A DNA stretch of 49,581 nt from a virus: positions 1 to 49,581 of IMG/VR virus record IMGVR_UViG_3300008106_000012; one strand, 5' to 3'. The notes below the pieces were generated by a model. That model searched no databases. It was not told where the DNA came from and saw only the letters and a list, made by a program, of their open reading frames with translations. Shown one piece after another: positions 44,832 to 48,403 of this stretch (positions within the stretch are counted from its first letter, which is position 1; each line of letters begins with the position of its first letter). Position numbers and translations under genes: made by a program.

Positions 44832-47366
44832 TTAGTAATACGCCGCTCTGCGGGGCCGATTTAGGTATTCGGGATCGCGGTAGTCAGATGGGAGGGTTAT
44901 GAACCCGCCTTGACGGTAGCGGGATAGGGCCATCGACAAACAATCGACTAAATCGTCATGCGTCCCGTATGGAAAGGCAACTGACTGCTCAATCACTTCT
45001 TCAGCCCAACGGCGGCCTTCTGGGTACCAGACCATGCCAGAGCGAATAATATCAGCAACGGCGTTCAAACGAGCAATTTTATCCCCAGTACCCCTATTAG
45101 GCGTGAACTCTTGCACTGGGATGCCCATACGGCGCAGTTCTTGGTATAACGGAATGCCGCTAGACTTTTTTTCCACAATAAACGCGTCAGGCTCCCACTC
45201 TTTCCACTCTTGAATCGCCAAATCTTTGAGTTCTGGGAACTCTACGCGGACGTTTATGGCGTTTAAAAGTATGATATGCGGGTTTCCGTCAGTAAGTTCG
45301 TCGTCAGAAAAGACACCAAAAGTCAGTATAGCAGTGTAGTCGGCGCGATTTGTCTTCTCAGCCGCTGCATCGAGCGCCATTATAACGTACTCGCACTTGG
45401 GGGGATCTTCTTTCTTCCACGAGCGCCACCAGTCGCGCTGGATGATGGCACCTTGCTCCCCCGTGGGATTCTGCATGTACTGTGCGTTCCACTGGAACGC
45501 CGGCATCGACGCCTTTGTACGTGCAAGGGCCTCTAAATCAAACTTCTCAGGCCACAACGCCTTTTCAACCACCCTCTCTTCGCCTTCAGAAGTAGTTGTT
45601 TTGGTCGTAATTATGGCTGGGAACTCGAAAATCTTGTATTGATCTGCTTTGGGGTTGTTTGCCCCGTCCTTAATTAGGTGCCCAATTAGATCCGACTCAT
45701 GCCATCGTGTATTATGGCTGATCACCCCGTTTGCAATGAAGTTTTCCGTGCCTTCTACCTGAATATCAAACACTTCTTCATACGCGTCCGAAGTGATCTC
45801 TACGATAACGTCACTTGTGAGTTCGTATGTACTCAATGGCGCGAAGTAGTGTCTCTTCGGTGTTGTCTTTACTGACGATGAGGTTACAGTTGTTGCAGAG
45901 AAGTGCCCGAACTGATCCCTTGCTGTGGCAATGGTCGACCCCCAATTTTCCATGCCAATTCGACGGGACGTTGTCTGGTCCTGGGGGACGTAAACAGATA
46001 GCGCATTTACCGTCTTGCTTCTCAAGAAGTTTATTGTACTCCTCAAGACTGATACCATACCGGTGCTTGAGGTGGGCATCGCGGTTTTTTTCTGCGCTGC
46101 GTTTGCGGTTCCCCAACGCCCACATGTGTTTATTGTAGTGAGATTGGCACATGCCCTTTGAATGGGCTGGTTCAGAACAGCCTTCTGCACTGCATGCAAC
46201 GCCACGCCATTTGCCCCAGTGATCCGATCTAGGAACCACCTTAGCTTCTCGGCGATCTTTGTGATAGTGGTATTTGCACTTTCCGAGTGCGTACGCCGGT
46301 TCAGTGCATTCTTCTGCACTGCACTTAGGCCGCCCAAGAGCTTCTGCACCAGCAGTGAAAACACGCTGCCGTTTTGGAGATAGTTCAAGGGGGTTTGTGG
46401 GGTTTTCGACACCCCGATCAATCGTGAACCCACCTTCAGGTTTTTTACCTTCGTCCATTCCAGCTTCCCTTCGGTTTGCGCCAGAAGCGGGTGCTTCCAG
46501 TTCGCCCGAAGGATTCTACCTGAGGTCGTCTTGATTGTAAAGATGCGATCAATGCCTTGTGAGGTCCAGTTCAAGACCTTAGCGGGCACTAACTGACTTC
46601 CATTGTGGCTCGCCACCACATCGCCGGGGCGCACATCCCGCAGCGGTTTTTCATTTCCGTCGCCCATAAGAACCGGAGTGTCCCCAGTCATGCAGTGGAC
46701 CACCGCAATTCGCCCCCCTGACATGAGGCGCGTACGGGCACCAAAAGCAAACCACTGATACGCCTTCTCTAGCTCGTCAAAATTGCCCGACAGCAGGTCT
46801 TGTTCCGAATGCGGGTCGTCCACCAACAGGAGGTCGGCACCGCGCCCCGCCAAAGCTGCGCCCACTCCGCATGCGTAGAACTCGCCCCCGTAACTGGTTG
46901 ACCATCTACCCGCACTTTTTGAGTCGGCAGCGAGCGTGACCCCCGGAAAAATACTAGCATAACGCGGATCTGCGATGATATTTCGCACCTTCCGGCCAAA
47001 GTCTACCGCCAAGTCGCCAGTATGCGACACCATTAGGACTTTTTTGTCTGGAAAACGCCCCAGAAACCAAGCGGGGAAAAGAGTACTAATTAGGTGCGAT
47101 TTACCATGTCTCGGGGGTATGGATACTGCAATACGGTCTTCGGTACCAAAAGCTACCTGAGTTAAAAGCTCTGCTAGTTTTTTATGGTGTGGAGCTACGA
47201 TATACGTAGGATCCATGTGCTTACAGAACTCAATAAGACTAGTTTGGCACAGTTTTGCGCTATTACGACGCTCTAGTTCTTCAATAATCGCTACGATCTG
47301 GGCCTGTTCTTCCGGAGAAAACTGGCTGATGTTGGCAGCCAGGGCTTCCAACTCCATCTGGTCCAT
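44832..47366 (-). CDS. terL: Terminase large subunit with intein and embedded endonuclease gene
   Basis: 844-residue precursor; the extein sum is 516 residues, normal for TerL. The ATPase has Walker A PPRHGKS (84-90) and Walker B LLLVDDPHS (Asp183-Asp184). The nuclease domain has IMALDAAAEKTNRADYTA and HDDLVDCLS (His803-Asp804-Asp805). Residues 225-552 are an intein: CMTGDTPVLM starts it and GVISHN ends it, followed by Thr553. Removal joins AVVH to TRWHESDLIG, the conserved coupling motif of terminases, so splicing is needed for function. The middle of the intein is overlapped in another frame by a separate gene (45811-46458). TerL cuts and packages genome DNA with TerS. Confidence 0.95.
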   Translation of the reverse strand: MDQMELEALAANISQFSPEEQAQIVAIIEELERRNSAKLCQTSLIEFCKHMDPTYIVAPHHKKLAELLTQVAFGTEDRIAVSIPPRHGKSHLISTLFPAWFLGRFPDKKVLMVSHTGDLAVDFGRKVRNIIADPRYASIFPGVTLAADSKSAGRWSTSYGGEFYACGVGAALAGRGADLLLVDDPHSEQDLLSGNFDELEKAYQWFAFGARTRLMSGGRIAVVHCMTGDTPVLMGDGNEKPLRDVRPGDVVASHNGSQLVPAKVLNWTSQGIDRIFTIKTTSGRILRANWKHPLLAQTEGKLEWTKVKNLKVGSRLIGVSKTPQTPLNYLQNGSVFSLLVQKLLGGLSAVQKNALNRRTHSESANTTITKIAEKLRWFLDRITGANGVALHAVQKAVLNQPIQRACANLTTINTCGRWGTANAAQKKTAMPTSSTGMVSVLRSTINFLRSKTVNALSVYVPQDQTTSRRIGMENWGSTIATARDQFGHFSATTVTSSSVKTTPKRHYFAPLSTYELTSDVIVEITSDAYEEVFDIQVEGTENFIANGVISHNTRWHESDLIGHLIKDGANNPKADQYKIFEFPAIITTKTTTSEGEERVVEKALWPEKFDLEALARTKASMPAFQWNAQYMQNPTGEQGAIIQRDWWRSWKKEDPPKCEYVIMALDAAAEKTNRADYTAILTFGVFSDDELTDGNPHIILLNAINVRVEFPELKDLAIQEWKEWEPDAFIVEKKSSGIPLYQELRRMGIPVQEFTPNRGTGDKIARLNAVADIIRSGMVWYPEGRRWAEEVIEQSVAFPYGTHDDLVDCLSMALSRYRQGGFITLPSDYRDPEYLNRPRRAAYY
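45711..46694 (-). mobile_element. Intein in TerL (328 residues) with out-of-frame endonuclease gene inside
   Basis: The intein begins at Cys225 (codon 46694-46692) and ends at Asn552 (codon 45713-45711), 984 bp. Block A is CMTGDTPVLMGDG; block B-like is GRILRANWKHPLL, with Asn-x-x-His where Thr-x-x-His is usual. Blocks F/G are EEVFDIQVEGTENFIANGVI and SHN+Thr. The +1 residue is Thr, acceptable for splicing. The Hint-type splicing halves are about residues 225-330 and 520-552. The stretch between, about 200 residues, is Ser/Thr/Asn-rich with no LAGLIDADG or HNH motif in this frame. Instead the endonuclease gene occupies it in the other frame. Excision is expected but not shown. Confidence 0.92.
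45811..46458 (-). CDS. Endonuclease VII-like homing endonuclease, nested out of frame within the TerL intein
   Basis: A 215-residue ORF on the same strand as terL but two bases out of its frame, wholly inside the intein. Two identical-layout zinc motifs come first: C46-x4-C51-x9-C61-x2-H64 and C89-x4-C94-x9-C104-x2-H107. A helical linker (RYGISLEEYNKLLEKQDG) follows, then an endonuclease VII/treble-clef HNH core: CAIC (152-155), LGVDHCH (Asp175-His178), GSVRALLCNNCN (Cys188, Cys191). ATG 46458 has a purine run (AAGGGAAG) upstream, within codons of the intein. It probably cuts intein-less terL alleles. It ends in its own TGA before intein block F, so it is not a fused domain. Function by motif and location. 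Confidence 0.9.
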   Translation of the reverse strand: MDEGKKPEGGFTIDRGVENPTNPLELSPKRQRVFTAGAEALGRPKCSAEECTEPAYALGKCKYHYHKDRREAKVVPRSDHWGKWRGVACSAEGCSEPAHSKGMCQSHYNKHMWALGNRKRSAEKNRDAHLKHRYGISLEEYNKLLEKQDGKCAICLRPPGPDNVPSNWHGKLGVDHCHSKGSVRALLCNNCNLIVSKDNTEETLLRAIEYIRTHK

Positions 47367-47368
47367 AT

Positions 47369-47986
47369 TTAGCCACCCAAAATCTGCCGCACATCTGGGA
47401 TTTTGTCCGGCTGAAGCTGAGTGTTCTTGATAGTAGGCATCAGAATTTTCGCATCTTCTACGTTTTGCTTATCTACCAATTTACGGATCTTATCTCGCAA
47501 AGATTCTTCGAGTTCTACTGTAGAGCGATTATTAACAGTGATCTCGGTACGGTCGGTAAACAGCCCGACGTTACTAATCTTGCCAAGCAGTTCCAGCGCC
47601 TTCATACGAATGCGCGCGTCCATATTTTCGGACTCTACAATCAACTTATTAGTTACAAAATTGCGCAGACGCCTAGCGTCCCGCACTATTTCCATGTCGT
47701 AGGCGGACAGGATTTGCTCGACGTATAGGGCACCTTCAGGCGTACTCATGGCTGATGCTGCTTCTGCCGTTACGATATCTTTACCTTCGGCAGCTTTACG
47801 AAGAGCGTTGTGGGCGATAGTTTGCACAAACTCGATGTTCGGTTGGTCTTCGCAGCCCTCCGCCTGAAGAAGTAGGGCCGCGTTACAGGCAGCCTTGGCC
47901 CGCCTGCGTAGCTCTTCGTATGTGAGCGTTGGCAGAGGGGCTCGGGTCGGCAGGGGGACGAACGATTCGGCGTTGCAATCGATCAT
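47369..47986 (-). CDS. Terminase small subunit (candidate)
   Basis: 205 residues from ATG 47986, which has GAGGTG close upstream; ATG 47995 is an alternative. A much longer in-frame extension (to 48271) runs through repeat-containing non-coding DNA and is rejected. The protein is mostly helical (TYEELRRRAKAACNAALLLQ, SAYDMEIVRDARRLRNFVTN), with a helical segment MKALELLGKISNVGLF and the end RKLVDKQNVEDAKILMPTIK. Position one base ahead of terL (stop 47369, start 47366) and size fit TerS, which recognises viral DNA. No DNA-binding motif is certain. Confidence 0.7.
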   Translation of the reverse strand: MIDCNAESFVPLPTRAPLPTLTYEELRRRAKAACNAALLLQAEGCEDQPNIEFVQTIAHNALRKAAEGKDIVTAEAASAMSTPEGALYVEQILSAYDMEIVRDARRLRNFVTNKLIVESENMDARIRMKALELLGKISNVGLFTDRTEITVNNRSTVELEESLRDKIRKLVDKQNVEDAKILMPTIKNTQLQPDKIPDVRQILGG

Positions 47987-48403
47987 GCACCTCATCCTAT
48001 ACGGAATTTTTATGCCCTGCAAGGGGGATTTTGGGACTCCTCCCCCGGGGGGTTCTGTATTTAAGGGGGGTGGGGCTGGTTGTGCGTAGTTTATTTTTGT
48101 TCGCCCTGCCGTTGTTGGTTTTGTTTGCGCGCCCCGCCGTATGTTCCGCTTGCTAGTTTTAGTTGCGCCCCGCCGTATGTTCCGCTTGCTAGTTTTAGTT
48201 GCGCCGTTTTGCGCGTGGGGATCGTTCGGCAAAATCTCAGCGCGAAGCGCGACGCCGGAGTCCCAACGCATACAAGGGGGGCGGGGGCGGGGTGGGTTAA
48301 CCGCTGGATAACTAGAAAAACACGCGTTTCCCTAGAGTGTAGATGTACGACACACCTACACGGTACCGGACCGAATCCGGTGCGACACTAACGGAGATAT
48401 ACC
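47987..48403 (+). promoter_or_regulatory. Divergent intergenic control region
   Basis: A 417-bp gap between the leftward packaging operon and the rightward gene at 48404. It holds a 36-bp tandem duplication (48129-48200), a GGTTAACC box joined to GCTGGATAAC (48295-48312), runs of G on the + strand, and a stem-loop just before the rightward start (ACCGGA 48365-48370 with TCCGGT 48376-48381). Late and early promoters should lie here, but I find no convincing sigma70 match. No gene of its own is supported. Confidence 0.55.
48129..48200 (+). repeat. 36-bp tandem duplication upstream of the terminase operon
   Basis: Two adjacent, identical 36-bp units (48129-48164 and 48165-48200), each starting GCGCCCCGCCGTATGTTCCG and ending in TAGTTTTAGTT, with the first five bases of a third copy at 48201-48205. 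They lie in non-coding DNA, between the terminase start and the rightward gene. No spacers separate them, so this is not a CRISPR array. Confidence 0.9.

Follow-up and report, generated by a model that had tools for sequence, protein, structure and literature searches.

A putative homing endonuclease gene nested out of frame in a continuous phage terminase intein and its relatives: a likely class of two-frame inteins

We analyzed a stretch of viral DNA of 49,581 nucleotides from IMG/VR (the window) and found that its terminase gene, terL, is interrupted at the ATPase C-motif by an element that is very probably a mobile intein, in which the homing endonuclease is a complete gene in the -1 frame, located between the two halves of the splicing domain, separately translated and proposed to spread the element. 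Comparison with relatives revealed both reading frames, the start site, signatures of selection, exact empty sites and horizontal movement. The proposal in a preliminary description of this DNA, that an independently translated endonuclease is double-coded within a continuous intein, was supported by these comparative data on frames, start and selection.

In agreement with that description, the 215-residue ORF lies wholly inside the TerL intein, on the same strand and two bases out of frame (offset +2, i.e., -1, relative to TerL and the intein). It starts at intein nucleotide 237 and terminates at a stop of its own, before block F and 100 bases short of the intein end, and the purine-rich site mentioned earlier was found as GAAGGG. 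The ORF also has an ATG of its own, as had been stated, with the refinement that this ATG takes its last two bases from the codon of a Trp that is invariant in the splicing domain. The features of the locus are as follows.

44832..47366, minus strand: terL ORF with in-frame intein, 844 aa (Pfam Terminase_6C, Terminase_6N and Intein_splicing)
46695..47366, minus strand: TerL N-extein, ending in GGRIAVVH, the ATPase C-motif
45711..46694, minus strand: intein, 328 residues, from Cys1 to SHN, followed by +1 Thr (splicing residues)
46404..46694, minus strand: N-terminal splicing (Hint) part, intein residues 1-97 (AlphaFold pLDDT 92-98; PDB matches to mini-inteins)
45840..46403, minus strand: linker in the intein frame (residues 98-285), sharing its DNA with the endonuclease gene and predicted to be disordered (pLDDT ~40-60, higher at the edges)
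45711..45839, minus strand: C-terminal splicing part, blocks F and G (PLSTYELTSDVIVEI...VEGTENFIANGVISHN; pLDDT ~97)
44832..45710, minus strand: TerL C-extein, starting with TRWHESDL
45811..46458, minus strand: nested out-of-frame endonuclease gene, 215 aa, Endonuclease VII-type HNH (Pfam; phrog_2914 endonuclease VII, E 2.9e-27)
46456..46458, minus strand: start codon (ATG) of the endonuclease; its A is the third base of intein codon Glu79, and its TG belongs to the codon of the invariant Trp80
46467..46472, minus strand: Shine-Dalgarno-like purine-rich GAAGGG, 8 bases upstream of the nested ATG (from the sequence)
46440..46446, minus strand: canonical -1 slippery heptamer (A_AAA_AAC) in the phase of TerL, without conservation in relatives
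45823..46074, minus strand: Endonuclease VII/HNH catalytic domain, endonuclease residues 129-212 (Pfam; conserved motifs)
46132..46323, minus strand: two putative Cys/His zinc-knuckle-like repeats, endonuclease residues ~46-109 (from conserved Cys/His)

Pfam detected Endonuclease_7 (PF02945, E 1e-17) in one frame, and Intein_splicing (2e-15) and Terminase_6C in the other. Assignment to the endonuclease family was also supported by DH and CxxC motifs that are invariant or nearly so, and the first zinc-knuckle-like repeat weakly matched Zf_WRKY19 (Pfam). Two other contigs (L001, L002) carry the nested gene at 100% identity. In addition, a 36-base sequence (CCCCGCCGTATGTTCCGCTTGCTAGTTTTAGTTGCG) occurs twice in direct head-to-tail arrangement at window positions 48132-48203, near the start of an ORF (47369-48271) upstream of terL.

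The layout proved to be general. Ten diverse contigs with the layout of the window were already found in a first scan; profile scans of viral contigs and bacterial genomes, together with phage records, yielded 188 loci with both splicing halves and the endonuclease. In 187 of these, the endonuclease was at offset +2 in an unbroken intein frame, and in none was it fused in frame; thus, the canonical fusion between blocks B and F was not observed in this intein family, and the frame reported in the preliminary description is conserved in relatives. The sole exception (L076) has a single indel that breaks both frames. Removal of redundancy at 97% identity left 119 distinct inteins. Carriers include uncultured phages, prophages and isolated Mycobacterium and Gordonia phages. 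These counts favor copies that kept the endonuclease and underrepresent endonuclease-free ones, as relatives were ranked by the full window intein or endonuclease; matches without endonuclease in the genome collection (L203 onward), mostly other chromosomal inteins, were left out. Endonuclease VII relatives that are free-standing rather than nested were also detected (L013-L024). One longer intein of 353 residues (L146:2172-3230) seems to contain a nested endonuclease with an extra zinc-knuckle-like repeat. The records of isolated phages that we examined (NC_012027, NC_028934, NC_055762, NC_055777, PP947710, MH976506 and KP027207) give one terminase CDS over the region and no gene feature for the nested endonuclease. 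A note in the Vincenzo record mentions a homing endonuclease in the intein.

Absence of stops in the intein frame is difficult to attribute to chance. When the window endonuclease was recoded with phage codon usage, approximately 4.7 stops were expected in this frame, and none of 300 synonymous recodings was stop-free (P below about 0.003). The odds of roughly 3 in 100,000 given previously for this one sequence were too generous once real codon use was considered. Over 117 non-redundant relatives, the intein frame contained no stops versus 414 expected; the third frame contained slightly more stops than expected (1590 versus 1437).

Judged by substitution rates, the endonuclease is under purifying selection (omega 0.145, 0.124-0.168, 31 independent pairs), with a value similar to that of the splicing domain (0.169). 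The raw NN/NS of the overlapped intein frame, 0.635, was suggestive of protein-level selection on the linker until fake-frame controls were examined: a fake overlapping frame in the N-splicing domain gave 0.659 and one in TerL gave 0.813, and no amino-acid-level constraint on the overlapped segment was detected against these frames. Because divergence of the linker equals that of a fake overlapping frame, it is best described, from rates and structural models, as a tolerated disordered linker and not a second functional domain, with its frame selected just for absence of stops. The earlier suggestion that the intein frame is selected therefore holds for lack of stops and not for amino acid constraint; the comparison of rates in both frames, also suggested earlier, separated a constrained endonuclease from a linker that behaves like a fake frame.

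Structure prediction is consistent with this division. In AlphaFold models of the intein, Hint residues 1-97 and ~285-328 had pLDDT of 92-98 and the overlapped linker ~40-60; the endonuclease domains, modeled in their own frame, mostly had 87-98. The first 34 endonuclease residues were predicted to be disordered, and part of this segment overlaps intein residues 80-97, which are still structured. The Hint and nuclease folds would then share DNA but hardly constraint. Foldseek matched the intein to the NpuDnaB and Mtu RecA mini-inteins (TMt up to 0.86), confirming a Hint fold; top matches of the nuclease, Hpy99I and T4 EndoVII, were weak (E 0.02-0.04).

Residues expected for class 1 cis-splicing were present: C1, H68, H327 and N328 are invariant in 47 relatives, followed by a +1 Thr. 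For a homologue, the TerL6-f intein of phage Chandler, ready splicing in E. coli has been reported from a construct that included 7-10 native flanking residues (Kelley 2016; PMC5050341). This intein, in Chandler gp6, has the same site and the same nested gene as the window element. According to the main text of that study, endonuclease activity was assayed just for two LAGLIDADG inteins, and the out-of-frame endonuclease of the Chandler intein is not mentioned there; the nested gene apparently went unnoticed.

The start of the endonuclease appears to be shaped by selection for internal initiation. Of the 119 inteins, 116 have it at the Trp80 codon (intein nucleotide 237 or 240); in the other three, the automatic procedure chose an upstream Trp or displaced the start of the intein itself. 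In each case, a wobble base supplies the first nucleotide, and the next codon, that of the invariant Trp, supplies TG; the resulting starts are 99 ATG, 19 GTG, 1 TTG and no CTG. The wobble base before Trp80 was A in 100 of 119 sequences, compared with 47 expected from codon usage. Similarly, the Gly76 codon was GGA in 75 of 115 sequences, whereas GGA made up 3-31% at seven further conserved Gly positions in these inteins. This GGA is mostly followed by G to give a Shine-Dalgarno-like GGAG; GGAG or GGGG is conserved at this position, mostly with 7 bases from GGNG to the start. The GAAGGG of the window is weaker than the common GGAG. Since these choices are silent for the intein and the control Gly codons share its phylogeny, wobble preferences at the start and the Shine-Dalgarno-like site provide evidence of selection for internal initiation. 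Relatives share ancestry, and significance values (Z-scores) are therefore indicative and make the evidence look more independent than it is; shared ancestry is controlled for in the matched Gly columns.

Distribution of the element also points to mobility. Empty sites joined exactly at the splice site were found in the phage pairs Phlyer/Daisy, Angelicage/Brandonk123 and Vincenzo/Zemanar. Among Mycobacterium phages, Phlyer and Chandler carry the element and Daisy lacks it, with flanking terL 99.5% identical; the Gordonia phage Angelicage has it and Brandonk123 is empty; and the Vincenzo/Zemanar pair shows an exact empty site at lower identity. Two loci (L074, L087) with exteins only 35% identical share a splicing domain at 90% and an endonuclease at 86%, which is best read as movement between divergent terminases. 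Conversely, in the Gordonia phages Angelicage and Nordenberg (L027, L028), the compared terminase extein segments are identical and the endonucleases 48% identical, a pattern indicating independent invasions of one site. We also found a natural mini-intein of ~148 residues at the C-motif site (L201:2788-3232), with an endonuclease remnant (GQWGKWKNKV) in the other frame, evidently produced by an internal deletion without loss of the intein frame; upstream of it lies the end of another intein. In a further copy (L199:2501-3316), the intein frame is open and the nested endonuclease is broken by a premature stop, consistent with decay. Taken together, the empty sites, transfer and these two derivatives match the gain-and-decay behavior of homing elements.

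Several other explanations were considered. Metagenomic contigs carry indels, and two compensating ones could mask an ordinary in-frame endonuclease domain; indeed, the apparent in-frame case, L076, was due to a single indel. However, the offset was present in 119 non-redundant lineages and in finished genomes of the cultured phages Phlyer, Vincenzo, Angelicage and Chandler. Because it is identical in lineages down to ~40% identity and in these finished genomes, the paired indels that the preliminary description had wished to exclude by resequencing were excluded by comparison, and we assign practically no weight to an assembly artefact. Another explanation starts from the fact that free-standing Endonuclease VII genes are common in phages: such a gene might have invaded and destroyed terL, leaving an open terL frame by accident. 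The intact Hint fold and splice residues, the absence of stops in 117 relatives and experimental splicing of the Chandler homologue refute this for the family and make it extremely improbable.

The -1 offset would also fit programmed ribosomal frameshifting, which would append the endonuclease to TerL-N-intein and require no internal initiation, and the window indeed contains A_AAA_AAC in the right phase, 12 bases past the start of the nested ATG. However, a canonical heptamer was found between -45 and +60 around the start in just 10 of 118 relatives, at scattered positions, and a conserved in-phase slippery site was thus not detected among them; by contrast, the start codon and Shine-Dalgarno-like site are conserved in wobble positions. 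Frameshifting was rejected as a general mode, and we consider it very unlikely. As for function, Endonuclease VII proper is a resolvase, and the nested nuclease could serve the host phage, either as a DNA-packaging HNH partner of terminase or in exclusion of co-infecting phages, rather than spread of the intein. HNH proteins have been described to aid terminases in other phages (cited in PMC11855218). However, the element is absent altogether from near-identical phages, identical terminases hold versions that are 48% identical, and both the deletion derivative and the stop-broken copy occur in nature, all of which render service to the phage an unlikely main role. Attack on the terL of rivals is possible as an added effect beside intein spread.

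A second intein of this kind was identified at a different site. In L006 (positions 1704-2711), another TerL intein, at a Walker B-like site, contains a nested gene (1999-2628) in the +1 frame, whose product is an HNH endonuclease (phrog_3377, E 1.9e-47, PHROGs). Pfam gave no match for this pair, whereas PHROGs did. The nested HNH also occurs in L245/L246, L247 (62%) and L251 (53%), and a strong Shine-Dalgarno sequence, ACAAGGAG, precedes the nested ATG in L006, L245 and L247. Relatives of this HNH beyond L251 are mostly free-standing. In L245 and L246, TerL has the Walker B-like intein and an empty C-motif site. Because site, nuclease and offset all differ, the out-of-frame architecture would appear to have arisen at least twice.

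In the mechanism that we propose, one mRNA would give two products. Ribosomes from the terL start would make the TerL-intein precursor, from which the Hint domain would excise itself together with the long disordered linker; ribosomes from the internal GGAG-ATG would make a free Endonuclease VII-type HNH nuclease. This nuclease would cut intein-free terL at the C-motif, and the whole unit would be copied in. From comparative data, we infer that the nuclease is expressed during infection, cleaves specifically and supports homing. More broadly, these elements probably represent a recurrent and overlooked class of two-frame inteins, continuous and cis-splicing, in which what reads as a disordered linker is the gene of an independently translated homing endonuclease seen in another frame. 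The class would have arisen at least in an Endonuclease VII type (TerL C-motif, frame -1) and an HNH phrog_3377 type (Walker B-like site, frame +1), and inteins considered endonuclease-free that have long featureless linkers may hide more.

In such elements, splicing and homing, the two halves of the textbook mobile intein, would be encoded by the same DNA as separate proteins, with separately tunable levels and no folding compromise. The dataset also provides more than 100 non-redundant pairs of long same-strand overlapping genes with one frame constrained just to stay open, which should be useful for studies on overlapping-gene origins. Moreover, it changes the reading of the laboratory-studied Chandler TerL intein, of which the near-identical Daisy has an intein-free terL, and reveals an annotation gap in isolated-phage records. 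In the literature searched, which had no preprints and few subscription papers, no report of an intein with an endonuclease in another frame turned up; the search for such elements returned just the ShiLan domain and a genome announcement of the same kind. The TerL element works like a mobile intein but does not follow the in-frame fusion of that family, a design that is apparently unreported.

Several known systems share parts of this design. Where a split intein has a free-standing endonuclease gene lying between its halves, splicing and the endonuclease likewise belong to separate proteins; the TerL intein, however, is a single cis-splicing unit that overlaps the endonuclease gene. An endonuclease ORF nested in the splicing element and out of phase with the host gene also occurs in group I introns, but RNA-level splicing needs no open frame, whereas protein-level splicing forces double coding. 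Canonical mobile inteins, such as TerL1-b and TerL1-c of mycobacteriophages (PMC5050341), likewise have a Hint domain, a site in a TerL ATPase motif and presence/absence polymorphism; their LAGLIDADG endonuclease is within the spliced-out protein, whereas the endonuclease of the window element is of the Endonuclease VII/HNH kind and forms a protein of its own, encoded in another frame. TerL6-f, described there for Chandler and other B3/B4 phages, is the same element as that in the window. The ShiLan domain of phage DNA methylases, an actively homing insertion with an out-of-frame HNH (Arsenault, Gosselin, Gogarten 2025, PMC11855218), resembles the TerL element in that the insertion is open in the host frame and the HNH endonuclease is out of frame. 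However, ShiLan lacks a splicing domain and is presumed to remain part of the methylase, whereas the carrier in TerL is a bona fide intein by its Intein_splicing profile and Hint fold; and while no ribosome-binding site was found for ShiLan and a leaderless start was proposed, the TerL element has a conserved Shine-Dalgarno-like site.
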